Of a stretch of 64,000 nucleotides of DNA, positions 1,491-36,133 are shown piece after piece. The position numbers and the translations under genes were made by a program. The notes beneath the pieces were generated by a model, which worked only from the letters and a program-made list of their open reading frames with translations, was not told where the DNA came from and did not search any database. Source of the DNA: Desarmillaria ectypa (Eukaryota; Basidiomycota; Agaricomycetes; Agaricales; Physalacriaceae). The stretch is taken from positions 2,852,001-2,916,000 of the forward strand of contig JAUDYN010000008.1 of NCBI GenBank assembly GCA_030407005.1, in the 5' to 3' direction. Position 1 is the stretch's first letter. The number at the start of each line of letters is the position of its first letter.

Positions 1491-1571
1491 CACATTAAAA
1501 TATAACTTTGGTAGATATGCAAGATCTCTCCCAGTTGAGTTCTTTATTTCTGAGGTATATAAAAGTGAACC

Positions 1572-2776: not shown

Positions 2777-3410
2777 AAGTTCTGCCATCATCTTCTGCTT
2801 CGCGGTTCCCTCCATACTGGAAAACGAGGGTGTGAAGCTGGTGCCTTGCAATGTGAGTTCGAATCGATGCTATATATCTGTTGCTGATCTATACCCACAG
2901 CTCCATGGCACAGGTACCTCCTCATCACTCCAGTCACAGATGAACCGTAACTCGTATCCTCTTTGTGGGAAAAACGGCACTGGGGAGACTGTATTTTCCT
3001 ATTACAACAAATCCAAGTCTGACCATGCCTTATCATGTACATCAACTCCTCCGTCGACTCCCTCATGACAAAAGTAAACTTCGTAATGATCCTAACAGCC
3101 ATCCAATGATCTCATGTCTTGTTCAATGTGGTCAGAAGCCCGATGAACTATGTACTCGACCGGCCTAAGGACGGCAGTTTAGAAGTTGTCTGGATGGGAA
3201 GTGTATCAAACGCGCCTGGCCAGGGAGCAGCGAAAAGGATGGCATTCCAGATGGAGGACATGATGAGGTTGGCTCACGTCTGGCCTGAAACGAAGTACAT
3301 GGCTCTAGCGGTATTAGAGTGAGGAAGGGGGATCCCAGGGCAAAATAATTTGCAGCGTGGCTGTTTGAGTGTCTGTTGGGATGATGGGGAGGCGGGACCA
3401 TATGTTCGCA
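2777..3410 (+). pseudogene. GNAT acetyltransferase pseudogene (unit 1)
   Basis: Decayed copy of the intact GNAT at 21540-22284. The start region aligns but the ATG is lost. The stretch reading LENEGVKLVPC matches LENERVKLVPF of the intact protein. The intron position is kept, and the C-terminal part around 3180-3290 still reads SNAPGQGAAKRMAFQMED, the acetyl-CoA-side helix of the family. Deletions and stops break the middle (about 3030-3120), and a stop closes the frame near 3320. It stands head to head with the hydrolase relic on its left, as in unit 2. Not functional. Confidence 0.7.
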
Positions 3411-8105: not shown

Positions 8106-10378
8106 TCAACCGAAAACATTGCTATGCAAATAGGTTCTGGAATCATTTGGCCCCCATAAAGAACGTCGCTGGCTGGCAGTGGCATTTGACGAAGCTGGGA
8201 ACATCTCAGACTCAACCTCACAGACAGTTCCGTCGCCGGGAAGGGTGCCGTTTTGAAAGTACGCTTGTACGTACGCTTGCGTGCATATGGACGAAGCGGC
8301 TAGGGATGTATGCTGTAGCAGCGGGAAAGTGAGTGTACGAAAACTTGTGTTAAAATGGTTACTTGCCCCTGATGCTTGTTGAGTTAAAACTACGGAGCCG
8401 GGGAATGCGCTCGACGTCTTCTTTGCTCTGAAGAAAGATTGATGAAGTGTGCTTGACACAGTTCTTGAGGAGACTCACGCAGAGAGAGGAGTAACGGGAT
8501 CTGAATGATACATTGATATAAGGAGGGGAGGGCTGCAGACGAATGTACATACCAGCCGTGTTTCCTATGAAAAGAATAGGATAACTGGTGTTTCCAGTGA
8601 CCGGTCCTATCAAGGGACACTTCAGAACAAGCCTCGGTCGGTTGTGTAGGAAAAGTCCCACCCGTAAATCTGTCTTCGCGATGAAACTTCCAGCCTCTAA
8701 AGAATGATACAATTAGTACACGCACGCGTTCATGAGAGAATCGACACACGAGCAGCTGATCCTCTCTACGATGAGAAAATCGGCAAAGGTAGATAAACCT
8801 TTGGTACTGTCCCAATATGCAAACAAATCCGCCACAGAGTCCGTATTGTTGAAGGCATCACTGCAGGAAATAGCAATTTCCGCCTCCCATGAATTGTCAT
8901 AAACGGAAGATGGGTCGTACGTTGTCGCCTGCATCTCGTAAATGATGCTGCCATTCCCTTCCGCTAGACTAGAAAGACCTTCTGCAAGGATAGAGGAATA
9001 CGCATAGGGTATGTACATGGCGCGCTCGACTGCGGTTCTCAGGACGGTATAGTCAACAACACCGTAGAACGATGGGGATACAACTGGGACTGGTTGGATG
9101 AGAAGAGACTCATATAGAGAGTCGAGGTTACTGGACATCTTTTCAGCAGTAGGGGCATAGAAAGCACAGGCATCGGGGCCAGCGGTCACGCATCCATCAA
9201 AGAAGGATTGCATGGCCTTGTCAGAGTCTGCAACCTCGTTGCGCCAGTCACCTGGCATGGACAAAAATTTCAATCACTGTGAGCTTTCGGACACAACATA
9301 GTCAACTTACCTCTGTAATAGCCATCCATATCCAACACACCTGAATAATATAAATGAACAAGTCTTAGTACGGGAGGAGTTGAATACACACCGTCAAGCA
9401 CCATACGTTCAACTTTATCCTGGAAGTTGGATTCATATTCATAATTAGGTAACTGACAGATGCATGAAATACGAGATAGCGCACTGGAAACATTGCAGCA
9501 AAGGTGGAGCCAAGAACCGTCCCATAACTAGAGGGCATCTATCAGCCGTCGAAAAGTGTAAAAAGCACTACTAGCTTACGAGAATCCCCAGTACTGCAGC
9601 TTCTCTTGACCCGCAGCCTCACTAATTCGCAGCATATCCCGGGCAACATTATCCGTAGTAATGTAATCCAGTATTCCGTTATCCCTTTCCTTGGCCAGTT
9701 CCGCTATAACCTGCGCAGATGCCCATAAATGAGGAATCTGGTCCGAGGTCGTGTTAGCAGCAGAAGTCCAATGATTGGTACTGGCAAGCCATTCATAATG
9801 CTCTTCTTTGGAGAGGAAGAACTCTGCTCGAGGCGTCGAATTAGCAACTCCTACAATCTTCTCAGCTACAGTCAAACCGCGTATTCAAAAACGTACCACG
9901 GGGATCGAAGCTGATGATGTCGTATTGGTTCCCGATAATGGGAGCAAGGAACGGACCACCGGAAGCCAAGAAGGCGACACCGCTACCGCCAGGGCCACCT
10001 GGATTCATCAGTACGGTTCCTTTATACTCGGTCTCAGATTGGGCAGGAAGCTTGATTACCGCGAGAGCAGCTTTGTCGCCATCCTCATTCGAGTAGTCGA
10101 TAGGAACCTTCAGTTGTATAGAGGAAACGTCATATGAAATACCGTAGTATGAAGGGGGAAGGCATACCTGGAAACGCGTGCATTTATAGTTAGAGTAGCA
10201 GTCGACCCATGAGAAATTACTCGTTGGTTCTATCTAAAGCTTGGTCGTGAGCAACAGCATATCGAGAAGGAGCAGCTAGACAAACAGTGCTCCAATCGAA
10301 ATCGCTTTGAGCCGATACTACAGGAAATAAGAACTCGGAATAGAAAAGCACGCAGAATGTCAAGGCAAAAGAAATCAT
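8106..10378 (-). CDS. Secreted TAP-like alpha/beta hydrolase (tripeptidyl aminopeptidase-like)
   Basis: Likely an extracellular peptidase of the alpha/beta-hydrolase fold with a C-terminal TAP-like domain. The protein has 540 residues in 13 exons by my reading. The start at 10378 gives a hydrophobic signal peptide (first ~23 residues, ending VVSA before QSDFDWST). NPGGPGGSG (residues 88-96) is the oxyanion loop. GFSYGT carries the nucleophile Ser214, split by an intron inside the codon. Asp445 lies in NTADPVTP and His473 in SGHTS. Every exon joins in phase, so the gene looks intact, unlike its relatives at 1-1490 and 29714-31936. The last intron uses a GC donor (GCAAGT, from about 8362). It is divergent from the GNAT pseudogene on its right. 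A TATA box lies about 40 bp before the ATG. Exact substrate cannot be told. Confidence 0.88.
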
Positions 10379-10416
10379 CGAAGAAGGTGAAATTGAGTGA
10401 GGAATTATCTGCGAGC

Positions 10417-10423
10417 ATTTATA
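10417..10423 (-). promoter_or_regulatory. TATA box of the hydrolase gene
   Basis: TATAAAT on the minus strand, 39-45 bp before the ATG. The paralogue has the same box at the same distance (31978-31984), and the relic of unit 1 has it mutated. Conservation between copies supports function. Confidence 0.55.
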
Positions 10424-11521
10424 CGCGTCAACAACAGCAGGGCCGGAGTCGGGTTGAAACGTATGCTCCATAAACATCTAAGAGCCTGCCAATGAGCCTT
10501 ACAGCTTTCAGATAACATCAATACAGCATAATGCCAGCATTTCTTACTTCCACATGAATCGGCTGGGCTATGCTCAATGCTTGATCACGATATCTTGCCC
10601 AGATGTTTATCCAATATAATACGGTGAAGTAACGCCGTCATCCTCTAGGTTGAGTTACGACCCTGTTTCATGTCAGATTCCAAGGTAATATACCCCAGAA
10701 GTACATAAACAGGAACTGCGCACCAGAAGATGTCTATCAAATAAGTTTAGCCTAAACCTCGGGCAGGAGCACAACACAGCCAGACGGCGTAGGAGTGGGC
10801 CATAGAAGAATTTCGGAATGGAATAACCAAAAGAAGGGCGATGATGGTCTGTTCTGACGAATGGATGTTAGACGAGTATGCCTGCTCTGGTACTTAGGAC
10901 TCGAGTCGGAAAACCAAGTACAGGGCCCGGGCAACGGATAAAAAAGGAATTCACCGCTCTTTTTGAAACCATCATGGTATATCTTCCTCTGGCCAATATT
11001 AGATAATAGTCATACCCTGCCGTTCAATACACCCGCTGATCAGACCCTCATAAAGCTTTCAAAAATCATGCAGTATTTCCGTCGCTATCCAAGTCGTACG
11101 ATTTGAACTAAGGAAAAAGACAGTGCAGTTCAAAGCAAAGCTGGTTTTCTTGGTGAGGACAACTTTGTAGCCACATACTACAGCATCTTGAAATAAGAAG
11201 TCAAGCATTCTATCTGAATGCTCGTTGAACGTTAAGGCCTCAACTGGATAACAAGCTTGATATCGCAAGTCGGTGTTCACAATGTACTCCGCATTTAAGG
11301 CTCGAGATGTCCGCTCACACATGGTCGTGGTGATGTCACTGAGTTCTGAAGTCCATCAGGTCCAGCCGACCCTGCCGTCAAGGTGAAATTTGATTCGATA
11401 TCACCGCTACGGGCTGCTACGGGTGCTTCTGAGCCGCACGGAAGTCACCGGAAATCCGTGTCGCACTCCAATCGAATTGTTAATCTGTGGGGGTACCTAG
11501 CTGCGCACCCACCACCTTGCT
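10424..11521. other. Spacer between divergent hydrolase and GNAT copies
   Basis: About 1.1 kb. It aligns in part with 1490-2776 (unit 1) and with the stretches before the intact GNAT (22380-22480) and before the third hydrolase (31985-32100). A minus frame at 11059-11322 (87 codons) has no counterpart in the other units. No gene that I can support. Confidence 0.4.
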
Positions 11522-11990
11522 ATGTCTTCTGCTTCGCGCTTCCAGTCTTGGGAAACGAACGAGTGAAACAGGTGCCTTTTGATGAGAGTTCGATGCGTTG
11601 GCTGAACAGGTCTGAACATGCCTCCGCAGGTGTCACGTACATCAACTCGTCCGGCAGAATTAGGCTTCGTGATGAATTACGCCCTCGATCTGCCTGGGGA
11701 TAGAGGTTTAGGCTTGAGATGAGTTGTATGGACGGCAAGCGCATCGAACGTGCCTAGTATGAGAGCAGCGAAGAGGATGGGATTCCAGATGGAGGGCGTG
11801 ATGAGATGGGTTCGTGTATGGCCTGAAGCAAAGGTCGACGACTCCGACGGGGTTGGTGGTGGGAAGGCGGATGTCGGGGCGAAAGAGTTTGCACACGGAC
11901 GAAATGCGACTGCTTTGAGTGTCTGTTGAAATGACTGGAAAGCTGGAGCGAAGGAGCAGGTGGATGCGATGATGACGAGAACAAATGGAA
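11522..11990 (+). pseudogene. GNAT acetyltransferase pseudogene (unit 2)
   Basis: Second decayed GNAT copy. A deletion just after the start (about 14 bp against the intact gene) shifts the frame and gives a stop at about 11570. The central part, with most of exon 2, is deleted between about 11600 and 11640. The C-terminal part still shows SNVPSMRAAKRMGFQMEG in one frame near 11735-11790. A stop breaks the VCWDDWEAG tail near 11925. It is divergent from the intact hydrolase. Not functional. Confidence 0.75.
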
Positions 11991-14620
11991 TTATAGTTTC
12001 GTCCGCGATCTTATACATGCTGGCAAGCATGACAGAATCGATAAGAAGAGAACTTTCCTCAAGGATTCTCGCTGAGCGGTACTAGCGTGACTTCCATTGA
12101 TAATAACGGGTCCGGATAGGCTTGAACGAGGTCTTATTCGTCGTCAATGTATTTCGCGTTCAACAATCGTCGGACGTTCATCTCTTGTAAATGCGTTCGG
12201 GGTCCCATAAAATAGATATATAAGGCAGGTGCTTCGGATAACGGACAGGAAACCTCGCAAAATACTGGAATGGTCTTTGCGCCATGACTGAAACATGACC
12301 GTCAGGACAGTATTTATGTGAATGTAAACAAAAGACGCTACCTGAAGTAGTCAGGCGAAAAGCATCTAACGTAGTCATAGCTGGAGCAAGGACGCTGTAA
12401 CCGACGAGATCGAAGACAACGTTGAGAAGGTGAGCCTCCGCTACCTAGCTTAATGCCGCTCAGGTGTTGCTGAAGCAGCGAGATAAGCAGCTTCGTTCGC
12501 GAGTTCCGGATTTCTTTGTCGCCCGCTTGGCCATGTGTATGACTAGCGATCGCCGGCTGTTCGTGTCGCAAAGGAGACTGTGGCCCTCGTATTCCATGAA
12601 GACGCTATATAACAACAGAGGCCGTCCGGGGACGCAGGAAACACGTCCCCCGGTCACCAACCACCAAGTTGTAGCATTGCGATTTTCTGTTATACTTCCA
12701 GATCAACATCAGGTTGACTCAGCATGTTTTGCTAAATCGAGTAACGTTACCGAGCTGCAGGTTTTGAAAGTCACCAGCAGAAGGTCGTGCTTTCTGGATG
12801 TCAATTAATGCCATTATCTCTCTGGATGATAGCAGTCCCCAAGACCCTCGCCCCACCCCAGATGGCGGCCGGAACACCCCCACCACACCCCAGTCATGGA
12901 AAATCCCAGGAGGATCGGCGACATACCCCTTGGATACGAATCTTGGAACCTGCAGTAGTGTTCGCTGGGTCATTGTTCGGCATATAGTTTCTCACGACTG
13001 AAAAAGTTGATCAATATAGAATTGTTCTGATGATGGCTCTATCATACGTGGAACGAGCCAGGACGGGCGCATAAGATGCCGATGCTTCTCGATCCTCTTA
13101 TTGTTCCAAAGAGAACCTTGTCCCAACACTTAGACGCATATCAAAGGGGAGAATCTTACCAAGGAGTGTGCGACGCACCGAATGCACAACGATGGAAAGA
13201 CAGGACGACGTTCCTGCATTTGCTTAGCAGTCCCTACGTCGCAAAAGGATATCCAGCCTTGCAGTTGCTTCTGGAGTGTCTGGCTGCTGATATGTAGCCA
13301 GGCTCTTAGTCATGTCCGACGGTAAATCTCTTCATCCTACGGCGGAAGTGGGTTCAGAAAAGACTTTCGAAGACATCCGGAAGATATCTGCGTGCAGTGA
13401 GTATAAGTAACAGTCTCATTCTATAAAATCATGACGAACATTCTGTCTATTAATCGTGTAATGCGACTCTTTCTCCAGTCCGGCGCTCACGCTCGTACTT
13501 GGAAGGGTAAGATACCCCAGTGATCGCATGTAGATCGTTGTGTGCGATAATGAAGCAGCCTACACGAGTGATTGTCGATATCACTGTGTGTTGCGTCGAT
13601 TCGCTGGACGGTCCGGATCCTACCGTTGATCATATATCCAGCTTCATAAGTACAAACAACTTACCTTGAAGGGTTGGCCGAACACCGCCCGTTCATGGTT
13701 TGAGCAACAGTACAAGCACTGGTAGCATTATAATAGCTTCAATAATGATATACTTTAAAGTCTCCTGTCATAGAGTGAGTAGAGAGCACGATATAGAAAC
13801 AGCAGCACATACGGTGTAAGTGTAACGTCGTCCGATCCCACATACACTGATAGCCATGGTTCCAGTATCGGTCCCGGAACACTTATCTTGCAATTTCATC
13901 GCCACTGAATGTGAAAGCTAGCGACGACAATATACCCAGAAAAGTTTGGAATGGAGAACACTGAAAGGCGCGTCAATGTGGAACTTGGTCTAGGACAAGC
14001 AATCGGGATTATAAATCAGATTTATTTTCATAGTAGAAATAATGGTGAACCTACGTATTCAAATGAGGTCATGGCTGCTTCCTCCCTGATCTTTACGTGC
14101 CTAAATCGCGAAGAAAAATACAACTTTACGGGCTGAAGAAGGAAACTCTGTTTCCTAGTAGCGGGATAACGACATATCAAGAGGAGTAATTGAGTTCTAG
14201 AATACATTCTTTACGCGATGGTAGGAGCCGAATGCGATGCTCATGGGCCTCATGGTCGTCGGGAGAAGAGCAAAGACTGTGACTGTGACCTCCCGACATC
14301 ACGCCACCCGTTTCGGATGTGCAGCGCGCTAACCGGACTGTTCAAAGTTGGATGTCCAGCCTTTTGCTTTCACTTTTTACCTTGTTTACTCTAGCTCTCG
14401 TGTCTTAACATGCTACAGCTCATCCTATCCGTTTCTCGCTACCTTGACGGGACTAGACAATCAGATCTCTGATTCGGTCTCGCGGGCCTACCAGAACAAA
14501 GATCCCGCTAGGCAGATGAGTGCAGATTCCGGAAAATCTTTCCATCTGCACAATACAGAAATGTATACAACGGAAGAACATATCTTGCAGACGCTTCGGG
14601 GACCCTGATGATGATCACTG
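11991..14620. repeat. Duplicated degenerate block, copy 2
   Basis: Matches 3420-5960 in the same orientation. Shared landmarks are the region ending GTAAACAAAAGACG near 12335, the site near 12604, the MYND-like remnant (13430-13870, frameshifted here) and a frame starting at 13951. Open frames are short and not kept between copies. The frame at 14348-14608 (86 codons) begins in the shared part but its tail has no counterpart in copy 1. I see no active gene. Confidence 0.45.
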
Positions 14621-21539: not shown

Positions 21540-22284
21540 TCACTTTGTCCTCGCCATCACCGCATTCACCTTCTCCTTCGCTCCCGCCTCCCAATCATCC
21601 CAACAGACACTCAAAACAGCTACATTTCTTCCGTACGCGAATTCTTCTGCCCTGGGATCCCCTTTCCTAACCCTAATTCCTCCAGAGCCACGGACCTTTA
21701 TTTCAGGCCAGACACGGGCCCACCTCATCACCCCCTCCATCTGGAATCCCATCCTCTTCGCTGCTCCCACACTAGGCGCATTCGATGCGCTTGCCGTCCA
21801 GACAACTCGTCGCAGGCCTAAACCGCCATCCTCAGGCAGATTTAGCGCGTAGTTCATCAAGATCCCGACAGCGTTGGACGTGACATGGGTCCGCTGGAAT
21901 GCAGGTAGGATCATCACGAAACCTATTTCTGTCACTAGATCTTCGACGGAGGAGTTGATGTACGTAATGATTCCCGCGTAAGCATGCTCATGTTTGGATT
22001 TGTCGTAAACGGCGAACGCAGTCTCTCCGGCACCGTTTTTTATTCGTTTCTCCCAAAAGGACGTGATGAGTTCTTGCTCGTTGGTAAATGGGCCGATAGG
22101 GAGAAAGTCATAAAAGGAAGTTGGAAGAGCGGTATCGACGTGCAGTTTTGGGTGAACGGAGATCTGAGATCATGTGAGTATGGATCAGTGACAGATGGAT
22201 CGAACTGACGTCGAAAGGCACGAGCTTTACACGTTCGTTTTCCAAGACGAGGGGAAGTGGGAAACAGAAATTGGTGGCAGACAT
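21540..22284 (-). CDS. GNAT-family N-acetyltransferase (RimJ/RimL type)
   Basis: Transfers acetyl from acetyl-CoA to an amine; the substrate is unknown. Two exons (22284-22210 and 22163-21540) with a 46-nt intron give 232 residues. Exon 1 ends LENERVKLVPFD, the usual opening beta strand of this fungal family. Exon 2 carries the core: TEIGFVMILPAFQRTHVTSN is the strand plus the acetyl-CoA pyrophosphate-binding turn, and SNAPSVGAAKRMGFQMEGVM the helix typical of RimJ/RimL-like proteins. An in-frame GTG lies upstream, but the ATG at 22284 matches the family start. This is the only intact copy; those at 2777 and 11522 are dead. If the nearby inversion is undone, it stands divergent to the third hydrolase, as its relatives do. 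Confidence 0.88.
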
Positions 22285-23207
22285 CTCGTTCTTTGGAAAG
22301 TAAAAGTCTGATGTTAAGGCACTCTCATAAATTAACAATCGTCTGACTCGATTCACGGAGTAGCCTTGCGGCACGGATATCCGGATTCCCGGTGCCTTCC
22401 GAGTGGTTGAGAGGTACCCGGAAGGTTGATATCGAAACGAATTTCACCACTATGGTTAGGACTGGCCATACATTGGAATCTTCGTTGCATTTACTGGCCA
22501 TCGTGAGTGCTCAAATGCAAGAAGAGGGTGGACGCTAACCTGCGATATGAATGTCAAATTATATCAAGGCAATGCCTCAGGTAGTGTTCACATAAAGTTT
22601 TTTGATTTCATGCTTTAACATGCCCACATAAGTCAAGCAATCCAGCCTTACCGGGAGCTCGAGTCGTCAATTCACCTACATGGCGACAGAAGTGTTCTAT
22701 AGTTTTTCAACCTTCACGATCGACTGCTTAATGGAGATATCAAACGATTGCCTATCGCTGCACCGTCGAATATGAGGTCGAGGAAGAAATGGCCAATGCT
22801 GTCATGGCGGTTTCAAAATGGGCGGTGAATACCTTTTTTGTCTATCCTCCTTTTTCGGCAATTCCCGGTTGCGGTTGCTTTTCTAACCATAACTCGCGTT
22901 TCTTGCCCTCTCGTCTGATGCATCCTCATGGACGAGTGAGTGATCAAAATAACACCGATATCTTTCCTTCTTCCAAGAAATCTCTAGTGTCCCATTTTCA
23001 ATGTCGCGTTACTGTGTCGGGCCCTAGTCCCCGGGTTCATGCTATGCCATAAGCTGACATACTCTTTCTTCCTGGCGCGCAGCCCAGCTTGGAGGAATAT
23101 GTTCTGAAATAGAACATGAAACGATATCACAAATGTATTTGCAGCCACGGCTGCGTTACTTGTCCGTGTTTCATTGAATAATAAAGACCGGGCGACGAAA
23201 CACAGCC
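22285..23207. other. GNAT upstream region, no gene recognised
   Basis: 22380-22480 matches, in reverse complement, the region before the GNAT copies at 2690-2760 and 11370-11460, so it is part of the duplicated unit. 22690-22890 resembles the minus strand of 2500-2590 (a stretch reading AVSKWAVNTFFVY against TILKWVVNAIFVH), a possible remnant of an unrecognised exon. The bases 23203-23207 (CAGCC) are one half of a target-site duplication. Confidence 0.4.
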
Positions 23208-23858
23208 TGTCATGGATCTTGAGTATCTGTAAACTCGGTGCATGAGTCAACGCATGCCTACACTCGGCCTTCTCGGTCCTAGCAGTGACTCACACATAAT
23301 TTTCTTTTACTTTCTCTATTCTTCTTGCTCATACTAGAATATAATAGAACATTGTAGAATATTCATGACTCGAGCCTTTTAGTATATAAATACCGTCTGT
23401 AACCTTGTAAAAGAAAGAATCAAGCTACTCATCTTCAAGTCCACTTCATTGCGTGAACTAAGCATCTGATCGGTTACGCCTAGCGCTTGCCAATCTCCTC
23501 GCTTCCTGACTACGCCTAGCGCTTGTCAGAAACCTCATCAGTTACGCCTAGCGCTTGCTGAACAACTCGTTGGATACGCCAAGCGCTTTCCGACACCAAT
23601 CCGAAGACTACGCCTAGCGCTTGTCTTCATCTACAGCCCATAATAGCTCCGCGCTCACCGGCTGCTTCCTACAGTAACTGCTTCGCACTTACTGACCCCT
23701 TTACCTCGCAAACTGGACCTCTCAGGTCTCCTCACGAACCCTTGCCGGAATCTATTCTATTCCCTAACGACATACATCTCTATAACATATCCTACCTCGC
23801 TTCGATCATCACTTGTCGCCCCTCACTCTCATATCCTGATTTCGGCAGATTCCTAACA
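23208..23858 (-). mobile_element. Solo LTR, family A, copy 1
   Basis: 651 bp. On minus it starts TGTTAGGAATC and ends ATCCATGACA. It is nearly identical to 32310-32962 in the opposite orientation and related to 35552-36133. The flanks are CAGCC on the left and GTGAT on the right. They do not match each other but match, as reverse complements, the flanks of copy 2. A TATATAAA box lies at about 23382-23389. A 150-bp internal repeat array is present. Confidence 0.92.
23475..23625. repeat. Five-unit tandem repeat inside LTR A
   Basis: Five copies of a roughly 30-bp unit with core CGCCTAGCGCTTG (one variant CGCCAAGCGCTTT). The inverted LTR has the same five units at 32545-32694; the third LTR has only two at 35819-35868. 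Confidence 0.85.
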
Positions 23859-23927
23859 GTGATGTACTATTACCTGCACAAGAGCAGAGGAGACACAGCA
23901 CTCTCCTCGTGCGTGTTTCCCTCCTAA
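23859..23927 (+). pseudogene. DUF6534-like membrane protein, 3' fragment
   Basis: Begins exactly at the LTR border and reads VMYYYLHKSRGDTALSS before a stop. YYLHKSR is the family's hallmark at the end of a membrane helix (usual form: AADILIA...CYYLHKSRTG). The matching 5' fragment is at 32963-33045 on minus. Joined through one copy of GTGAT, the two give an open frame. What follows 23911 does not continue the family pattern in an obvious way, so the gene was probably also decaying, or an intron hides the rest. Confidence 0.65.
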
Positions 23928-25227
23928 GACTTTCTAATTCTGGCTCATATACTTGTACTAGAACAGCAGAAGTACTTCCCCGTATGATGTGACTTGTTCA
24001 CGTATCGGGGTTAGCCACAATGTGAAGATATCTACTTCGATATCGCCCACATTGTTGCTGATGAAAATGAAAGCGCATGCTAGCTGTTCGTTCTTATTTC
24101 GGTCTGTTATTTCTCTATTTGACCCCATCCAAAAATCTCAAGAATATCTGTTGTACATCGTGTAGCTGGAGTCTCTGGCTTTCCTCAGCGTCGATTTTAT
24201 CTTACCCAAACGTCTGTATTCTGCGTAATATACCAAAATCTGTTAACGAATAGATCTCTAGTCTATGTCAACTCGCTGCTTGTTATTTTTTTATCCGTTT
24301 CTTTTTGAACCTAAAGCTTACATGCGCTAGGCTTAATTACCGACGTAAACATCCGTCGAACAAGCCCACCGCAGAACGTGTAGGACATTCGACTCCAGCT
24401 GTCCTCCAGATCACACTTCACAGTTCCGCAGGCGATACCGAAGAAACGGTATGTGCAATCGCATGTGCTAAAAATAGTCGTCGTCTCGATTGCTGATCAA
24501 GTATTTCCTCCAGAATATCAGCATTCTGCTCTCTGATATCCAGAACATCCCAAGAAGACATTTCTGAGGGCCAGTTGCGTATTACTTATAGTGGATAGCG
24601 TCATTCCAAAGTAGAGACGTCGTAGTGATCGTCTCAGTTACACCATCACCCCTCCGGATTCTATCCTCTTCATGCCCCATGAGAGTGCCTTAACAACATT
24701 CAATTTTACTCGTTACTGTGATCAGAATCAAGGGACAGAATCAAAATGATACACCAGTCGTGCACTGGGCGCGATTCTGGTCGCAGTGATACATCTCTGA
24801 AAATCACTGACCTACCTGAAACTCAGTCGGCGTGGGTTGCCAAACATATTTCCTTGACTCCTGGTGACTTCCTGAAGTACTGCGCCTGCGCGGCTCGCCC
24901 TGTCGTTTGCAGCATTTGCTACTGCTCCTTGGTCCCATGATTCCAACATCCAGTAAACGTATAAGCTGCGCATGAGGCCCAACATAGTGATATGCGAGAT
25001 AGGTGATCTACCAACAACCAACACCGTTCGATTTTTATGGTGACGAATCCAATGAAGACCGGAATCAGTGATCCACATGCAAGCCTGGTGACCGTGATTC
25101 TGCCGTCGTTTGTGAACTGACAGTTCAGTCGAACTTGGCATCATGGTTGCTGGTCAGAAACAAAGAGGCAAAAAAGTATATAACTACGACCAGATGCGTT
25201 CTGGAGTTTCCTGCCAGTAACCTCACC
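23928..25227. other. No recognised gene; upstream of membrane-protein gene
   Basis: 1.3 kb with short frames only. A CGTATCGGGG motif near 24001 and the CAACTC-rich stretch near 24270 are not repeated. The last 200 bp are the likely promoter of the next gene. Confidence 0.4.
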
Positions 25228-26509
25228 ATGTCTAGTACATCGACAGGTGCCCCGGAGCTTACAGAGGATGATAAACGGTTCATCCGTCAAATCCTAGGCA
25301 GTCTCATGGGATCCGTGGTCCTCCAAGGACTGTTACACGGTATGAGTTTGATCTTCGCGTTCTTCCCGATGCCTGATTAACCGACTCGGTAGGGTTGTAC
25401 ACCGCCGTATTGGCCATCACCCTCTGGCAGCTGTGTACGCACTCTTCCCACTTGGATGATGCATAACCTGTGATTTCCGTAGTGACCAGCAAAGAACGGC
25501 GGAACAAGGTCACTATGGGTGTCATCGTCGTTGCCATATACATTTCGACTACCATCAGCTTCGGGTTCACCTGGTCTTTCCTCCGCTATGTACTCATCGA
25601 CAATGACGAGGACATGGTGACATCGTACTTTGCCTCCCAAGCTAGCGACAGACATACGATAGTAAAGGTTATCGTTACCGCTACTTGTGGAGGGATCAGC
25701 ACGATCCTCTCCGATGGTACTATGGTATGTACGATCGCCGGTTTTAGTCGACTAATTCATATCTGGACCTCCCTTGCATAGATCTGGCGGTGCTGGATCA
25801 TATGGGGACGAAGCTGGTTGATAAGTATCTGCCCCATTCTCTGCACGATCGTTGGTATAAGTAAGCCCTTCCTGCCATTCAGCGGGTCCCAGCTCAGTGA
25901 TCCACTCCAAGTATGCAAAGTTTTGTCCGTGTACCACCTCATCTCCGACAATGTCAACGGAGTAGATGAACAGACCGCATATGGCACTAGGATCAACTGG
26001 TCTATTATTTATATCTCCCTCATCATGACGACGACTATCTGGTGCACCCTACTAATCATTTTTCGAATTGTAAGCGTAGGAAGGAAGGTCGAACATGGCC
26101 TCCAACGATATCGCCGCATCATTGAAGTGGTTGTGGAATCATCGGCTTTATATACCGCTTCGCTGATCGTGCTTCTGGTGATAGTCGCACGGAATGTTAT
26201 ACATGGAGATTATTTTGATGTCATAACCACCATAGCAAGGGTACGTCCTTCCCCTTCCGGGCCGATTTGATTATTTAAACTCGTGCTTTCCTCTAGGGTA
26301 TTGCCCCCACTTTGATTGTTGGACGCGTCGCGGCAGGGCACGCGCGCGCTGATGATTCATGGCTTAGTTCGGCTTTATCGTCTCTACATTTCGGATCTGC
26401 GGCCCGCGGGGAAACAGATATGAGCGCTACAATGAGCGTTGCTAGTTGGAGGGTCGACAATCAGGCGGGACCTGAGGACCATTTGCAGGTGACGTCCCTC
26501 CCTGTGTGA
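25228..26509 (+). CDS. Seven-helix membrane protein, uncharacterised agaricomycete family
   Basis: Six exons (25228-25339, 25393-25434, 25483-25724, 25782-25860, 25912-26240, 26297-26509) sum to 338 residues with all junctions in phase. Seven hydrophobic segments are visible, among them AVLAITLWQLL, TMGVIVVAIYISTTISFGF, SIIYISLIMTTTIWCTLLI and ALYTASLIVLLVIVA. Family landmarks known from other agaricomycetes are IWRCWIIWGRSW after helix 3, RRIIEVVVESSALY before helix 6 and GIAPTLIVGRVAAGHA at helix 7. The C-terminal tail is polar and Ser-rich. The layout resembles a receptor, but no function is known. It lies inside the inverted segment, so its orientation relative to the flanks has changed, while the gene itself is intact. 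Confidence 0.85.
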
Positions 26510-28559
26510 CTGGAATATAGCTTCGGCATAGTTTCCAGCACGGCATGGAGCAGGTTTCTCTGGACCTAATAACAAAGTGAAGCCTACTGGAGAGTAGCCG
26601 TGGCTGTAACAAAGAAGGTATCACGAGACTTCAGATTGAGCTCTTGATGTGACAGGAAACCACTGCTATGACGTTCGGTGAAGCAGGAGCTAGTCAGGGA
26701 TGTAAGATTGAAGCGGATGAACTGCCATGTCCTGTGATGTCTATGAAACGGCAAATAAGCTTTCGCGTGTAGCACCGGCAGCTGTTGACCCACAAGACAT
26801 CCCCGAGGTCGGCTTGCTACTGTTATAATCGACAGAGACTTCAGTGCAGACTTACCATTTTCGGTGCTGTCCACCAAGAATGCGGTAATGCGAGTAACAC
26901 CCGGGAATCATGGTGCGGGGCTGCTTGATATGGGGGAACCTAGCGCTCTTAGTGGCTCCACTTTGTTTGGTTGTGCTAATGTCGGCATGGTTAATATCTT
27001 CAACAACGTTTCTAAGGATGCTAATTGTGGGTGAAAATGCCCTAGAAAGCGATCGTCAATCGTAATGCGTAACTTGGGCCTACTTGACGACGTACTCTGA
27101 CCACATGATATTCAGCGCAATGTTTGATTGACAGAAGGCTCGGAGAACGTTGAGGTTGTACCAAAGAGTTGTCTATAACGCTCGCCAATTGGAGGATCTT
27201 GCGTAAACATGTCCGATCTCAATCGCCTTGGTGACAAGCTCGCCGATACTCTATTCCGCTAGTCTCACGGCACCTATAAAGAAATATGTAAGACATTCGC
27301 TTCAGAATAGAGATGACACACTCAGCCAGACCCTGTCGCTCAGATTAGAAGACGTCGTAGCCGGATGTGGCAGTACTTTCAAAGAAACGGAGGTCACTAC
27401 CTGCTGTGACCGGGCATGAAACGCATGCCCTACTTCTCTTCCAAGAATCACCACACTTCCCTGAACGGCTACATGTCGAGAGCCGGCGACGGTTCTGATT
27501 TAAGTGTAGCTAGAGTAAGGGTTGCAAATACTCCACGTGGTTCATGAAATTAAACTAGACTTCTCAGACACCATGACCATGTTGTCCCTGCGAGGGACCT
27601 TAGCTGGAGACGCGTCTGCGATCCTGGTATCCTATGAGAAATGCTACCTGAGAATTGAGCTTATCCACATCATCATTGACGTACCTTTGTAACTATTCGT
27701 GTCGAGCGTAGTATCATAGCTATGATCCAACCTTTGATCCAACCTTCGAATCGACGTCTTGCAAGGGACGACATCGACCAGCACATTGGTAGGCAACCCA
27801 TGAGTGACCCTTCGCATGCCGAAAGACGTCGTAATGTGGTAACAGTTTTGCTATCTGTTTCGGAATCGTAATGCATGAATCGCTCTGCTATCCCGAGGAT
27901 ACTTGTTCTAGGCCTCAACAAGTACTTGCCGATGACAGCACAGTTGAGAGATCCAGGACCAGGGTGACCCTATGGAGTGTCATTCATAGAAAAATGGTTT
28001 CGGAAACCAGTGACATACCTTCAGAAGATGCCGACACTCAAATCCTGCTAAGAACGAATTAAGACATCATCGCGGCGACGAGATTATTGTGCGGCTTCGA
28101 GAAGAGGGTGTATCAGTATCGGAGTTCTGTCAATGACTGTTGAATTGTACCTGGAAGGATGGCACACCGGTTCTAGAGCCTCGTTCTGCTCCGCTTGTAC
28201 TATCCGTACTCCCACGGAAGTCAAGGTACTATTTTTTTCTGCCGCCAAGTGAATGCAAGGGCGATTGTTGCGCGTTCCTTCCTTGCACCCAGGTTTGGTG
28301 GGTTTGCCTACGCTTAAGTGTTAGGTTCAAGCAATCTTCATTGCAGATACTATTGAAGCATCAACTTGCGGACTTGGACTGAAAGGTAGTCCCCTGTCCC
28401 TACGACGACAGTGCGTACATAAGACCTTCACAAGTGTCAGGCGTACGCCTAAGACCTATGGAACAACATATATAAGCAGCAAGTTGACGTGATGGAGGAA
28501 AATATGATGACCAGTAAACGGACAGTACCAAGTTGACCATGAGAAGTAAAATGTGATCT
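26510..28559. other. No recognised gene
   Basis: Frames up to 97 codons on both strands, none with a pattern or splice structure I can defend. A short direct repeat of TTTGATCCAACCTT occurs at about 27722-27746. The minus frame 27673-27921 spans it and is unremarkable. Confidence 0.4.
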
Positions 28560-29440
28560 TGGGTTGAGGCTGTCCAAAGTAGTCTACGCCATTAATTGTC
28601 ACTGCCACGCTGTACATGACTCACCAGATGGCTGAGTTGTATCATTCCCCACATATACGGGCCTGTAGCTAAGAAAGGCGTCGTTAAAAGACTAAAATGG
28701 CGATTAACGCGTTGTCCAACTATGCAGAGATAGGTAACCTACCTTTCAGTCACCCGCACATAGATAGCAGCGAAATAGTCATATCAATACAGACGCGGTC
28801 TTGGATCACAGAGTAAGCACACAAATCGATAAATACAAGCGGTGCGCACGATTCCACGAAGGCACTGTCTTCCAATCCCGCATACACTGGCCGGATTGAT
28901 TGCAGTATCGACCCAGTCATAAGACCGTCGTACCATTGTCGCTATAGTATTCCAGCAACAATGAGATAGTCAAAACATTCAGTATGGAACCAAGAGACGC
29001 GTCGGCCTGGAATTTGGGAAGGATGTCGTCTGGCAATGATATCGTGCTCTTCAGAAAGATGTGTTTTTTCTAGTCAAAAGATAGACGAACCATTCTATAT
29101 GGATATAATTCTATCCATTTCTTCCTGTTCTCTACAGTCTAACGCGACGAAAATTCCAATTCGCGGGACTGACCAAAGGTCCGCAAATTGCGAGCAGAAC
29201 ACGAGCCGCATACGTAAGTCTCGAGCAGAAAAGGCCATAGACTGCGCGGGCCGCTGTCGAAGAATTCAGGGGCGGGGCCCAATAGCGCCCTCACAGTGGG
29301 GGTGGCCGGAAAGACCGTGATTGTGACTGTGACATCCCGCATGCGAAGGCGCCCTGACTCAGCGATCTCCTGGCCTCGATCGGGGCCCGGCTTTTTTGTC
29401 CAATTTTCGCTTACGTTTGTATCTTCCCGACTTTGGCGTG
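28560..29440. repeat. Duplicated degenerate block, copy 3 (partial)
   Basis: Aligns with 5100-5900 and 13500-14350 in the same orientation as the neighbouring hydrolase: shared pieces around CCGCATACACTGG (28877), ACGCGTC-GG (28994) and TGACTGTGAC (29321). No frame is kept with the other copies. Confidence 0.45.
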
Positions 29441-29713
29441 CAGTGTACCTTTACTACGCTTCATGCTCTAAAAAGAATGAGGCGAATAGTACACAGTAGT
29501 GAACCAATTAGATCTCGGGTCGAGACACATCTCTCGTTATTGGCACGAGGGTCCGGGTAACTTGAAGAAAGACAAATATTTAATAGGGCTGCATAATCAA
29601 TGAGCGGGGTTATATTGAACATAATCGGTTTGGTGTAGTGCATAATTAACGCGAATAATGGATCACAGGTCTGCGCTGGACGAACGGGAGACCAGGGTCA
29701 GGTTCTATTTATT

Positions 29714-31936
29714 TCAACCACGGAAGGAACGTCGCTGAGTTGTGTCTGACAGTGTTGAGAACAGCTCAGTCTCAACTTCACAAACGACTCCGTCGTTGGG
29801 CAAAGTGCCATTTTGGAAATAAGCCTGAACGTACGCGTATGTACAGGCAGAGGAAGCTGCCAAGGAGGTGTGCTATAAGATCGACGAGGTTAATAGACAT
29901 ACATGTGGTTCTGAGCGATACTCACCCCGGATGAATTCTGAACAAGAACGACGGATCCAGGGAACGCGCTCGATGTTTTCTTTGCCCTAATGGGAGAGTA
30001 ATCAATACAAATGAACATAAAAAGATGGAGAAGAGTAACGTACGAGGAGAGGGGAGTGATAGGATCTGAACAACACATTAGTTGCGTCAAATAGAAAAAC
30101 ACATAATAGAATCACATACCAGCCGTGTTTCCTATGAAAAGTATGGGATAGCCGGTGTTTCCGGCAACTGGACCTACCAGATACATCAGAATGGGTCCTG
30201 GTTGTCAGTGCAGAGGACAGTTCACCTGTAAATCTGTCTTCGCGATGAAACTTCCACCCGCTAAAGAGAGACAGAATTAGTGTGCACACGCGACTAAGTA
30301 GGAATCCACATACGAGCAGCCGATCCTCTGCGACATTAGCCAAACAGCAAAAGGCGATAGACCCTGGACACTATCCCAATATGCAAACAGGTCTGCCACA
30401 GAGTCCGTGTTATTCAGCGTATCGCTGCAGGAGATGGCAATTTCCGCCTCCCATGAATTATCGTAAACGGGAGATGGGTCATATGCATTCGCTTGCATTT
30501 CATAAATTATGCTGCCGTTCCCTACTGCGAGGCCTTCTGCGAGGACAGAGAAAGACGTATATGGCAGGAACAGGGCGTTCTTGACTGCGGTTTGCAAGAC
30601 GGCGTAGTCGACGACACCATAGGAAGATTTAGAAGGGATTATGACTGGGACAGGTTCGGTGAGAAGGGACTGGTATATGGTGGCGAGGTTGTTGGATATT
30701 TCATCAGAGGTGGAAGCGTAGAATGCACAGGATTCAGGGCCAGCAGCCACACAGCCATCAAAGAATGATTGCATATCTTTCTCGGTGTCGGCGACTTCAT
30801 TGCGCCAGTCACCTGGAAGGAGTAAAATGTCAGTTATGTAAGCTCAGTGGATGCTTCGAGGTTATTATACCGCTGTAATAGCCGTCCACGTCCAACACAC
30901 CTGATCAATATGAGTGAAGGAACTGGCAGATGATCTGAGAAGCTAACGACATACCATCAAGTACCATACGTTCGACTTTGTCCTATAAATACATTCATAA
31001 TCGAACAGCTGAGATTATCGAAAGAAACGCACGGGAAACATTGCAGCAAAGGTGGAGCCGATTACAGTCCCATAACTAGAGGACATCAATCAGCCGTCAA
31101 ACAGCGCAAAAAGCACTACTAGCTTACGAGAATCCCCAGTACTGCAGCTTCTCTTGACCCGCAGCCTCACTAATTCGCAACATATCCCGGGCAACATTAT
31201 CCGTACTAACGTAATTCAGGATTCCATTATCCCTCTCCTTAGCCAATTCCGCTATGACTTGCGCAGATGCCCATAAATGAGGAATCTGATCCGAGGTCGT
31301 ATTAACAGCAAAAGTCCAATGATTGGTACTGGCAAGCCATTCATAATGCTCTTCTTTGGAGAGGAAGAACTCTGCTCGAGGCGTCGAATTACCTACTCCT
31401 GCAATGCTTGCAGTATGAGCTTCAGCCGGTTATAGAAAAGGTGGGTCAACGCACCACGAGGATCGAAGCTGATGATGTCGTATTGGTTCCCAATAACAGA
31501 TGCAAGCAACGAACCAATAGAAGTCAAATAGACGACACCACTACCGCCAGGGCCACCTGGATTCATCAGTACGGTTCCTTTATACTCGGTCTCGGACTGC
31601 GCGGAAAGCTTGATAACCGCGAGAGCAGCTTTGTCGCCATCCTCATTCGAGTAGTCGATAGGAACCTTCAGTTGTATAGAGGAAACGTCATGTGAAATAC
31701 CGTAGTATGAAGGGGGAAATCATACCTAGAAACGTGTGCATTTATAGTTAGAGTAGCGGTCGACCCATGAGAAATTACTCGTTGGTTCGATCTAAAGCTT
31801 GGTCGTGAGCAACAGCACATCGAGAAGGAGAAACTGGACAAACAGTGCTCCAATCGAAATTGCTTTGGGCCAATACTGTTGGGAACAGGAACTCCCTATA
31901 GAAAAGGAAGCACAATGTAAGGAACAGAGTGACCAT
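29714..31936 (-). pseudogene. TAP-like secreted hydrolase, copy 3, with premature stop
   Basis: Same exon plan as the intact gene at 8106-10378, and most exons are in phase: signal peptide (MVTLFLTLCFLFYREF..., cut near VLA), NPGGPGGSG, GFS-YGT nucleophile site, NTAD, and SGHTS-like end. Two changes stand out in exon 2. The last codon before the intron is TAG (31728-31726) where the intact gene has CAG, and the conserved Cys of the WVDCYSNYKC stretch is Arg (CGC). The stop falls near residue 53, before all catalytic residues. The promoter TATA is kept. The loss looks recent because the rest is open. It could still be transcribed. It lies within the inverted segment, so it now points away from the GNAT it once faced. 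Confidence 0.8.
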
Positions 31937-31977
31937 TGAAAAAGTCGATATCGAGTTTAATGGCAATACTGGTAACC

Positions 31978-31984
31978 ATTTATA
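31978..31984 (-). promoter_or_regulatory. TATA box of hydrolase copy 3
   Basis: TATAAAT on minus, 42-48 bp before the ATG, matching the box at 10417-10423 of the intact paralogue. Confidence 0.5.
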
Positions 31985-32309
31985 CGCATCGATTCAGCAT
32001 CCACTGAGCTTAGCGGCAGGGTTACGTTGATACGTATACTTGATACAGACGCAGTGTGTGCGCAGCTGAAACTATTAAAATGAGCTACGGAATTGTTCAC
32101 GTGCTACGGAAGATAGCTGCAAATGGAGGATATCCTTCTTCCATTTGCGAGCGGCTTGAGGGTACAGCCTGCACAAGTATTATCTTAGTGGTCTTGTATC
32201 GTGAGCGCAGGTAGAAGTCAATGTTTATAAAATGTACAAAAGCATTCCAGTATTATACAATTCAGGACCGTACACAAAATCTTCGTCATCAATGAAAATA
32301 GCGGGGCTG
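31985..32309. other. Hydrolase upstream region up to the LTR
   Basis: Partly alignable with 10424-10560. Ends with GGCTG (32305-32309), one half of a target-site duplication whose partner is CAGCC at 23203-23207. Confidence 0.5.
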
Positions 32310-32962
32310 TGTTAGGAATCTGCCGAAATCAGGATATGAGAGTGAGGGGCGACAAGTGATGATCGAAGCGAGGTAGGATATGTTATAGAGATGTATGTCG
32401 TTAGGGAATAGAATAGATTCCGGCAAGGGTTCGTGAGGAGACCTGAGAGGTCCAGTTTGCGAGGTAAAGGGGTCAGTAAGTGCGAAGCAGTTACTGTAGG
32501 AAGCAGCCGGTGAGCGCGGAGCTATTATGGGCTGTAGATGAAGACAAGCGCTAGGCGTAGTCTTCGGATTGGTGTCGGAAAGCGCTTGGCGTATCCAACG
32601 AGTTGTTCAGCAAGCGCTAGGCATAACTGATGAGGTTTCTGACAAGCGCTAGGCGTAGTCAGGAAGCGAGGAGATTGGCAAGCGCTAGGCGTAACCGATC
32701 AGATGCTTAGTTCACACAATGAAGTGGACTTGAAGATGAGTAGCTTGATTTCTTTTTTTTTACAAGGTTACAGATGGTATTTATATACTAAAAGGCTCGA
32801 GTCATGAATATTCTACAATGTTCTATTATATTCTAGTATGAGCAAGAAGAATAGAGAAAGTAAAAGAAAATTATGTGTGAGTCACTGCTAGGACCGAGAA
32901 GGCCGAGTGTAGGCATGCGTTGACTCATGCACCGAGTTTACAGATACTCAAGATCCATGACA
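32310..32962 (+). mobile_element. Solo LTR, family A, copy 2
   Basis: 653 bp, TGTTAGGAATC...ATCCATGACA, the inverted partner of 23208-23858. It has the same five-unit repeat array (32545-32694). The flanks GGCTG (left) and ATCAC (right) do not match each other but are the reverse complements of copy 1's flanks. A poly-T run at 32753-32761 is the main difference from copy 1. Confidence 0.92.
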
Positions 32963-33045
32963 ATCACGAGGGCTATGATGAAATCCGCAGCAGCGATCAT
33001 ACAGAAAATGATATTGGTATATAGAATATCAGTACAGCCACAAGT
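32963..33045 (-). pseudogene. DUF6534-like membrane protein, 5' fragment
   Basis: On minus the frame reads DILYTNIIFCMIAAADFIIA and then L, ending at the LTR border with GTGAT. This is the last-helix region of DUF6534 proteins. It joins the fragment at 23859-23927. Upstream of 33045 the sequence belongs to an F-box relic, so only this one exon of the membrane protein is visible, perhaps preceded by an intron or a deletion. Confidence 0.6.
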
Positions 33046-33821
33046 CTTTGGGGCATTTCTTGTAGAAGATGGCTGCTTGAATATTCCTTATCCCAAATAA
33101 ACTGCAAAATCGAATGAAAAGATATTTTCGTAACTAAGGGGAAGTTACGGATATTGCAGGCCCAGTATCATTCATGACAGGGCGATATCTCACGAGGGGC
33201 ATTCTATTATCCAAGGTGCATATTCGCCGCCTGTGCATGTCGAAGCGGGCCCATCCACTTAGCGTAAGAAGGGCTTTGAACGACTGTCAGCAGAAAAGAA
33301 AATGGGTTATTGTTATGATGGTAGGTGTTCTTTTTCTGATTCACCCAGTCTAACTCGTAAACGCTGCCTTCGTTATCTGAAGGTCGCTCTTCAACAGGTG
33401 CTAGCAGATGGAAAATTGCACCAGGATCGTCCAATTTATGCCAAATCAAGTCCATGGTGATATCTGCCCACAATTTGCAGACAGTGAGAGGACCATGTGT
33501 TGGATAACATGCGCACTGCAGATCAAAGTTTTCCCAGTGAGTTAGAACAGAGCAGTTCAAGTTTACTTATAGGAAGGGAGGCAAACGAGTACATTATACT
33601 ACAAAATCTAGCTACTTATATACTCTGTGTATCCTTCTTGTACTTTCTCTCTCTCTTAATAATCCTTTACTCAGCAAGACTCGGGCCAACTGGACATCGG
33701 GCCAGCTCGCACAGCCACAGGGTCAACAATATTCCACACCGTGCACGGGTGGCTGCAGAGGCCAGGCGAGCTTTATGATGATTGCGGCGACCAGCTCCGG
33801 GACGGTAAAGATACGGTGCAT
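33046..33821 (-). pseudogene. F-box gene remnant split by an LTR
   Basis: The ATG at 33821 starts MHRIFTVPELVAAIIIKLAW, the usual opening of agaricomycete F-box genes. The frame hits the LTR at 33728. Past the LTR, from 33497, it resumes HGPLTVCKLWADITMDLIWH followed by KLDDPGAIFHLLAP, the rest of the F-box motif. Without the insertion the two halves give an F-box of normal length (about 44 residues). Further on, 33275-33110 reads GWARFDMHRRRICTL and then LRR-like decay with frame changes and stops. The F-box binds Skp1 in ubiquitin ligases in working members; this copy cannot make a full protein. Confidence 0.6.
33498..33728. mobile_element. Probable solo LTR, family C, inside an F-box gene
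   Basis: 231 bp with ends TGTTGG...TCAACA. The inner layout (TTATATACT, then TTTCTCTCTCTCTTAATAA, then CAGCAAG-CTCGG) is like the second half of LTR family B, so the two families are probably related. It interrupts an F-box coding frame. The flanks CCATG and ATATT do not match, so no target-site duplication is visible; recombination or decay at one border may explain this. Confidence 0.55.
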
Positions 33822-34514
33822 TGGAGGAGACTCGTTCCGGAGATTAAGTTAGTATTTGAGTAGACATTTGTTATAGGAATACATTACGATGCTGCAGGTA
33901 ACGCCAGAGGTTTGCTAGTCATGGTGAAAACTCGAGATGAAAAAGGATGAGACTCCAAATTCGGACATGATATAAAATACGCACGTGAAGATGTTGATCT
34001 TGCCGGCTCTCAGCCAGAAGGGATCACTAAACGTAGCTACTCTAAAGCGCTCATGTAGCCACAGATAAAAAACATCTAATATAAGCAGTCACTACGAGAG
34101 AACTGAGAAAATACGCTTTTAGCCAAAACCTAAAGGAAAGAAGCGACAAAGATCGAGTCAGCGTGTCTAGATAGATAAATCTCTCTGGTGACACTTGTCG
34201 ACATAGTAAAATACCAACAAACGGAACTGCACAGGATGCAACTACATCCTCACTGAGCATAAAGCTCTATCTCCGTCTCAAGCCCCATCTTCGCGGCCTC
34301 TTCGCTGCATCCCGAGTGCGCATTGAACGGGCCTGGATAGTTTTCGGACCATGAAACTTGAAAGAGCCTGCTTTTAAGCTTCAGAGCTTCCCGCGACTAG
34401 ATTTGGCTGTCGACTCTGTAAGGTTGTGGTCACAAGTCACGAGATGTGACCGAACGCGTTGAAGTTTGCCATAACTTACAAGCACGCCACAGTTGGTGTT
34501 ACCACCAGTATACG
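33822..34514. other. No recognised gene
   Basis: About 700 bp between the F-box start and LTR B. A minus frame at 34051-34260 (69 codons) is hydrophobic but not recognisable. Confidence 0.4.
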
Positions 34515-34762
34515 TGTTGTGAAAAATGGGGGATGAATAGATCAGTTCGTTCCCAGTTAGTACATGTGCGGTGTCAGGCCAATAGTATTGCGCTTGGCTG
34601 AGCTCTGCAAACGCATGCAGATGTACACTACTGTACCTACTTATATACTAAATGCTAATTTACTAGAATCTTCTACAAGTTTCCTAATATTTCTCTCTTA
34701 ATCAGCAAGTTCGGCATGATGCCGGATTGCCATCATCTCGGCTCAACTCTCAAATCCCAACA
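34515..34762 (+). mobile_element. Solo LTR, family B, CpG-containing copy
   Basis: 248 bp, TGTTGTGAAAAATGG...AATCCCAACA, with 5-bp flanks ATACG (34510-34514) and ATATG (34763-34767), a target-site duplication with one C/T difference. It has seven CG sites, all lost in the copy at 1572-1821. Confidence 0.85.
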
Positions 34763-35551
34763 ATATGATTCTTACAGCCACCCATTACCAGAATATCTAG
34801 ATAGACCTAGATATCGTTCACGCTGAAAATGGACATCCCTCCACGCGGTTCGTCTTCAGCCGACTCTTCACATTGACAGGACGTAAATAAACTGAGGGCT
34901 GCAGTCAGAACAGTTTGGAGCCGCCGAAACGAGGCCATACCAAACTCAAACTCGAATCAGAGTTGTTACCTTCTTTTGAAATCTGAGCAAAATCTGGGCC
35001 CTCCAGATAAAAATCAAGCCACCGCAGTAGTAGGGAAGAATATAGAAGAAATCACTATGAGGTAAGATTATTACCCAAAATTGACATGGATCACTAAAGG
35101 CATTGAGTATCAACTTTGATGGTCATGGTGACCTGATAGCATCGTGACGAACAAGGACCAGCCCTCAGACCCTTCATCAGAAACGGTTAGGCGCAAAATG
35201 TGATATCGGAACAGACCACATACGAGCCCATGAGCGACGAGGAACGGCGGCGACTGTAATCACCACGAGATCCTTGTTGGCGGTGTTAGTCTCTCGAATG
35301 TAGACATAATCGCACTCCCCTGTGTAACGGCGTTCCGCTGAATGACATCTGATTCAACTATTCCATCACATGAGATGAAACAAGGACCAAAGACCCTGTC
35401 GATTCAAGTAACCATGATGTAAGGCCAAGGAATATAGCTCGAATAACAGGACGACTGACCTCGCCAAGAGCGGTAGCCAAGGACTCAAGGACTCAGCTGG
35501 ACAAGTCTCGCGCTACCGACATTTGCCAATTCTCTAGAGACAGACACTGGG
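34763..35551. other. No recognised gene
   Basis: Nearly 800 bp with no frame above 60 codons. It ends in CTGGG, the target-site duplication of the next LTR. Confidence 0.4.
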
Positions 35552-36133
35552 TGTTATGAATCTGCGGAAATCAGGATATGAGAGTGAGGGGCGACAAGGG
35601 ATGATCGAAACGAGGCAGGATATGTTATAAAGATGTATGTCGTTGGGGAATAGAATGAATTCCGGCAAGGGTTCGTGAAGAGACCTGAGAGGTCCGGTTT
35701 GCGAGGTAAAGAGGTCAGTAAGTGCGAAGCAGTTACTGTAGGGAGCAGCCGGTAAGTGCGGAGCTATTACCGATATAAAAAGCCTGTAAGCGCGGAGCTA
35801 TTACGGGCTGTAGGTGAAGACAAGCGCTAGGTGTAACTGACGAGGTTTCTGACAAGCGCTAGGCGTAACCGATCAGATGCTTAGTTCACACAATGAAGTG
35901 GAGTTGAAGATGAGTAGATTTATTTGTTTCTTACAATGTTACAGATGGTATTTATATCCTAAAGGGCTCGAGTCATGAATATTCTACAGTATTCTATTAT
36001 ATTCTAGTATGAGCAAGGAGAATAGAGAAAGTGAGAGAAAATTATGTGTGAGTCACTGCTAGGACCGAGAAGGCCGAATGTAGGCATGCGTTGACTCATG
36101 CACCGAGTTTACGGATACGCGATATCCATAACA
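35552..36133 (+). mobile_element. Solo LTR, family A, copy 3
   Basis: 582 bp, TGTTATGAATC...ATCCATAACA, with a perfect target-site duplication CTGGG at 35547-35551 and 36134-36138. It is shorter than copies 1 and 2 because only two of the five 30-bp repeat units are present. It also has a second, slightly changed copy of the GCGGAGCTATTA stretch (about 35758-35803). Its normal duplication is a useful control for the swapped flanks of the other two. Confidence 0.93.

Follow-up and report, generated by a model that had tools for sequence, protein, structure and literature searches.

In the window analysed here, a 64,000-nucleotide stretch of Desarmillaria ectypa, a basidiomycete from the honey-fungus group (contig JAUDYN010000008.1, labelled C31 below, one of the 32 contigs of a 40.6-Mb assembly), a segment of 8451 bp (23859–32309) seems to have been inverted by recombination, namely by a crossover between the oppositely oriented long terminal repeats (LTRs) on either side of it. 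We give this reading a probability of about nine in ten, whichever of the two events, the flip or the formation of the solo LTRs, came first. Two elements of one LTR-retrotransposon family would have inserted in opposite orientation, one at the target CAGCC in the upstream region that a hydrolase gene and an acetyltransferase gene, arranged divergently, have in common, the other 8.45 kb away at the target GTGAT in the relic of a DUF6534-like gene. A crossover between the inverted LTRs, presumably by homologous recombination, would then have reversed the intervening segment and distributed the target-site duplications (TSDs) so that either LTR is now flanked by half of one and half of the other. 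An earlier note had proposed this recombination and flip of 23859–32309, and the proposal is now supported by the swapped TSDs, by a family-wide TSD control, by the gene-pair order that is restored when the flip is undone and by a paralogue of the second junction. Paralogues in the same genome took the place of a comparison with related strains or species, and they support the view that the present order is the derived one.

The evidence begins with the flanks. The left LTR (23208–23858, forward strand) and the right LTR (32310–32962, reverse strand) are 99% complementary and lie in opposite orientation 8451 bp apart. With TG...CA ends, a 5-bp TSD that is characteristic of the family and no internal part attached, they are solo LTRs. 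Direct reading places the two halves of the first TSD at 23203–23207 (CAGCC, forward strand) and 32305–32309 (GGCTG as written on the forward strand, CAGCC on the reverse), and those of the second at 23859–23863 (GTGAT, forward strand) and 32963–32967 (ATCAC on the forward strand, GTGAT on the reverse). Both LTR coordinates and all four 5-bp flanks had been given correctly to the base in the earlier note. The left LTR is thus flanked by CAGCC and GTGAT and the right LTR, read in its own direction, by GTGAT and CAGCC. This exact reciprocal swap, in which each LTR carries one half of either TSD, is the expected product of a crossover between inverted elements with the TSDs CAGCC and GTGAT. A third, more diverged LTR of the same family (35552–36133, reverse strand), which had been put forward as a control, does serve as one since CTGGG is present on either side of it.

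Two unrelated insertions whose TSDs had eroded or were missing, with flanks that match by coincidence, could in principle look the same, and the family does contain one copy that lacks a TSD (C32:2468627). However, two random 5-mers of the window are equal with a probability of 0.0011, so that the double match has a chance of only about 1.2e-6 per pair. Both window LTRs are within one or two substitutions of other copies, and the restored junctions described below agree with paralogues. We regard such a coincidence as extremely improbable.

How unusual the swapped state is could be judged from the rest of the family. Pattern searches of the genome gave at least 111 three-prime and 59 five-prime LTR ends, DNA searches added further places, and most of the places found were fetched with their flanks; the sample is therefore a part of the family rather than all of it. 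Of the 108 copies examined, 97 have both ends; 76 of these are solo-like, and the other 21 belong to full or tandem elements. The 5-bp TSD is perfect in 63 of the solo-like copies, carries one mismatch in 7 and three or more mismatches in 6. Three pairs among the 76 have both flanks in common (C2:1521303 and C9:98, C13:2490 and C30:277319, C27:877182 and 883172) and repeat one locus each, which leaves at most 73 independent copies. Four of the six strongly mismatched copies make up two exact reciprocal swaps. The fifth (C12:32464) is a boundary error, as its true 3′ end is 2 bp further on and gives CCTTG on either side, and the sixth is the orphan LTR on C32 mentioned above. The two swaps are the window pair and C4:112356(−)/114857(+), and in each the LTRs are inverted, on the same contig and less than 10 kb apart. 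When the 13 solo-like copies whose TSDs are mismatched at one or more positions were compared with one another, no further pair approached a swap to within 2 of the 10 bases. The possibility raised in the earlier note that the window flanks are common 5-mers at many insertions does not hold, for CAGCC and GTGAT each occur twice among the solo flanks of the sample and these occurrences are confined to the two window LTRs.

Near-complete solo LTRs lying inverted within 10 kb of each other form three pairs in the sample, of which two are swapped. The third (C1:4420468/4422700, 1.7 kb apart) retains its own TSDs; that of C1:4420468 was judged by eye, with CTAGA on either side and the first LTR bases changed. 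An interrupted copy (C2:1999816-2000612) has GGTAT on either side and two inverted neighbours with intact TSDs, and when these are included the swapped state is found in two of five close inverted pairs.

The second swapped pair provides an independent view of the same kind of event. On C4, the LTRs 112356-112903 (−) and 114857-115404 (+) have swapped the TSDs ACGGA and AATGC and are separated by 1953 bp (locus L124). The segment beside the first of them has homologues on C30 and C1, and both homologues align in one piece through the restored junction B (954 bp at 88% and 794 bp at 84%). Against the present order, each homologue aligns in two parts that lie on opposite strands and break at the edges of the LTRs, with an overlap of 6 bases, that is the 5-bp target plus one, and at base level a single ACGGA is found at junction B in both homologues. 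At this junction the inversion mechanism is shown as tightly as sequence alone permits. The confirmation covers junction B only, the match of another locus (L131) being confined to the interior of the segment. The two C4 LTRs differ at 2 of 548 positions and yet are at least 4% away from the other aligned copies, a likeness that hints at an exchange between the two or at a shared source that has been lost.

In the window, the first junction falls within a gene pair of which the genome holds several copies. The LTR with the CAGCC target sits between G3, an open frame for a GNAT acetyltransferase (21543–22169, reverse strand; PF13302, E 3.1e-9) outside the flipped segment, and, in the restored order, E3, a gene for a TAP-like alpha/beta hydrolase inside it (29717–31936, reverse strand; delimited by homologues, exon map and translation). 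Six other such hydrolase-acetyltransferase pairs were found on C31, and in all six the genes are divergent neighbours with 1.1–1.7 kb between the listed matches; lone matches among those listed amount to one acetyltransferase (C2) and one weak hydrolase (C3). The E3-G3 pair (U3) in its present order is the sole one with both genes on the same strand, 7.4 kb apart. With the flip undone its genes become divergent, with 1274 bp between the homologous blocks as against 1294 bp in U1, a paralogous divergent pair within the window (231–3397). Local alignments cross the restored junction in five of the six paralogues, namely U2 (8158–12005, also divergent and in the window, used as an outgroup), U4, U5, U6 and U7, while none of the six aligns through either of the present junctions when the LTR is left out. 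Control joins made with random pieces of window 36500–64000 were crossed in 0 of 600 cases when the right half was random and in 2 of 600 when the left half was. A multiple alignment with five paralogues places the target GGCTG opposite GGCTA in U2. The region also contains a 243-bp repeat, 93% alike between its copies at 1579–1821, in the intergenic part of U1, and at 34522–34762.

At the second junction the comparison reaches base level. On the segment side of the left LTR, window 23860–24452 has one homologue among the matches listed (C31:2992512-2993112), which together with its surroundings (L132) is 66% identical over 713 aligned positions and extends for 18 bp through the restored junction. 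Here the restored string ATCAC followed by GAGGGCTATGATGAAATC is aligned to ATCAT followed by GAGGGCTATGATGGAATC in L132, with one copy of the target. The right outer flank shows a further collinear match of 67 bp to L132 in the same orientation (79%, E 6e-11), scoring 39.0 as compared to a maximum of 21.0 in 300 random pieces. A single target copy and contiguity in the unflipped order, both read from paralogues, are thus seen at base level at junction 2 and in the alignment at junction 1.

In the frame that is open across the restored second junction, a DUF6534-like motif scores 20.4 bits (E 0.0012) and so stays under the Pfam cut-off of 28.2; L132 gives a similar match with E 0.029; both copies look like relics of a gene. 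That of the window would have been cut by the LTR of the GTGAT target and the flip into an inner half (23859–23924, forward strand) with a Pfam match below the cut-off and an outer half (32963–33089, reverse strand) recognized by paralogue alignment and by a likewise subthreshold Pfam match. The open frame by itself is weak evidence, two of the three frames being open at the restored junction. Somewhat further out, a repeat about 240 bp long lies at window 33491–33748; it is dispersed, with more than 30 other places among the matches listed (68–93% identity).

Several observations weigh against a flip in the form proposed here. The unflipped order is read from paralogues and not from an orthologous chromosome, sequence conservation around junction 1 is poor, and the U1 alignment, although the gene order of this pair agrees, stops short of the restored junction. 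At junction 2 the crossing is short, since the 18 bp are followed by about 1 kb of extra paralogue sequence before the next match, and the L132 target ATCAT is one base away from ATCAC. Moreover, the U7 gene pair and the homologue of the junction-2 flank stand in the opposite order to that of the restored U3 (C31:2991344-2994201), so the gene cluster has undergone further rearrangement. Finally, neither window LTR looks chimeric: the two differ at 7 alignment columns, which all fall in the interval 188–338 of the LTR, and copies similar to each of the two allele sets exist, so that the crossover has left no trace. If it was a simple crossover, this lack of a recombinant look would place it within an identical tract.

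An inversion that exists in the assembly only, or in a minority of nuclei, has also to be considered. If the assembler had gone into the 651-bp inverted repeat at one copy and come out at its counterpart, the TSDs would be swapped and the paralogue order broken in just this way. The assembly does contain redundant or unplaced pieces of the family: LTR loci of C2 and C30 recur, flanks included, on C9 and C13, and C19 repeats part of an array on C30. On the other hand, the window contains no N, the genome is in 32 contigs, those seen being up to 4.57 Mb long, and the fact that a tandem array of 3.2-kb units (C30:3392637-3399702) was assembled suggests reads far longer than 651 bp. Other close inverted pairs, such as the one on C1, keep their own TSDs. 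Such an artefact seems improbable to us. DNA searches for a duplicate of the locus elsewhere in the assembly, in which limited candidates were scored, found a 100% match to the locus itself only; one of these searches was filled by matches to a dispersed repeat.

If, then, the crossover between inverted LTRs was real, it was probably not very old. The left LTR is one substitution in 651 away from the copies C30:3392637 and C32:2523614, the right LTR two substitutions in 652 from C27:949234. Owing to this near-identity to other copies the insertions, and hence the flip, look recent. For comparison, between 1 and 10 substitutions separate the two LTRs in each of eight LTR pairs of elements, which include the outer pair of one array and a pair with 13 kb between its members.

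Since most copies of the sample are solo-like (76 of 97), we infer that solo formation had taken place in both elements by the time of the flip. A variant in which the flip took place between full-length elements, or between a full-length element and a solo LTR, and the internal parts were lost afterwards would lead to an end state that looks identical, and full-length copies with 2.55-kb internal parts do exist in the genome. With solo-like copies outnumbering element LTRs by 76 to 21, solo formation first remains the simpler order and the variant the less likely one, at perhaps a modest chance. Three open frames from internal pieces, which cover some of the internal parts, matched no Pfam family at E 0.1 and so gave no reverse transcriptase or integrase domain by which to assign the family to the Gypsy or the Copia superfamily.

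The full-length elements show some features of their own. Tandem LTR-internal-LTR-internal-LTR arrays with a spacing of 3207 bp are found at C30:3392637-3399702 and on contig C19 (22,977 bases), and C19, which has an outer flank in common with the C30 array, perhaps represents part of that locus a second time. In an element on C28 (3227661-3231293, TSD AGTAT) an inverted stretch of LTR (positions 651 to 211) stands in place of the 5′ LTR. A short word common to both links it to LTR 630–651, the internal part follows, and each outer end of the element is consequently the 3′ end of an LTR. This element is perhaps an aberrant product of reverse transcription that still integrated. Within the window, the spacing of about 3.2 kb between the right LTR and the control LTR resembles that of LTR-internal-LTR copies. 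A reading of 32310–36133 as a single full-length element was nevertheless dropped, since the two LTRs share only 81% identity (654 aligned positions), the motifs that mark the internal edge beside element LTRs elsewhere are missing from both, and the outer LTR carries its own TSD. The left LTR contains five copies of the motif TACGCC[T/A]AGCGCTT (LTR positions 268, 304, 336, 368 and 402) with a TATA-like word upstream of them at position 176. No tRNA genes were detected in the window.

What the inversion did to the genes can be read in part from the deposited annotation. The flip separated E3 and G3 within the upstream region that they had in common, and according to the exon map and translation the native second exon of E3 has an in-frame stop at its end. 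The deposited protein P0001 (PF00561 and PF08386 in Pfam) takes its first 38 residues from 33455–33342 on the reverse strand, an exon that lies outside the inversion and beyond the right LTR, and continues after an intron of about 1676 bp which contains the whole right LTR. An apparent signal-peptide exon, judged by eye, opens the D. tabescens proteins P0002 and P0020 as well as four of the five other models of C31 examined, the fifth being P0035. A new gene is a less likely reading of P0001 than a gene model that was stitched together around a damaged one. It is a doubtful proposition that close inverted solo LTRs of this family flip back and forth so often that swapped TSDs record only whether the number of flips is odd or even, and that at the window locus E3 may in this way have acquired the first exon which P0001 takes from beyond the LTR. 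The swapped state of two of three (or, in the wider count, two of five) close inverted pairs would speak for repeated flipping, as would the likeness of the C4 LTRs, which looks as if repeated exchange had maintained it.

Inversions mediated by transposable elements that leave exchanged TSDs are already known, and the window locus adds a solo-LTR example from a fungus, in which sister sequences of the genome let the states before and after be made out with unusual clarity. A clear parallel is inversion 2z3 of Drosophila buzzatii, generated by Galileo, with copies in opposite orientation at the breakpoints and exchanged TSDs (PMC2775673). In both systems the TSDs are exchanged, and the target is present once when the order is unflipped. 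They differ in that Galileo is a DNA transposon of a fly, studied on real unflipped chromosomes and with chimeric copies (PMC2775673), whereas the window holds fungal solo LTRs with paralogues as the reference and no visible chimerism. In yeast, inversions arise from a crossover between inverted Ty elements on one chromosome arm and solo deltas from recombination between flanking deltas (PMC9879454); the Ty rearrangements were induced by cutting the elements (PMC9879454), in contrast to the natural event in the window, which is read from its TSDs. Mismatched TSDs have also been used as a record of recombination for the recombinant CR elements of maize centromere 10 (PMC4806543). Those are chimeric elements, and a reciprocal swap between two solo LTRs, the feature seen in the window, is absent from the parts of that report covered (PMC4806543). 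One inversion of a hAT copy, in which the middle sequence was lost, is described in Marasmius oreades (PMC9674265); it does not show the pattern of the window. Literature searches for solo-LTR inversions, fungal ones included, and for inversions with exchanged TSDs or between Ty elements covered titles and the beginnings of abstracts, and a fungal solo-LTR case may be in print.

A single assembly can thus reveal and polarise small LTR-mediated inversions, with mismatched TSDs as the flag and repeated gene pairs or dispersed repeats as the unflipped reference. The locus also carries a warning in that gene models may be stitched across inversion junctions. Since two flips were found among the few close inverted pairs of one family, such events may be commoner in fungal genomes than has been noticed.

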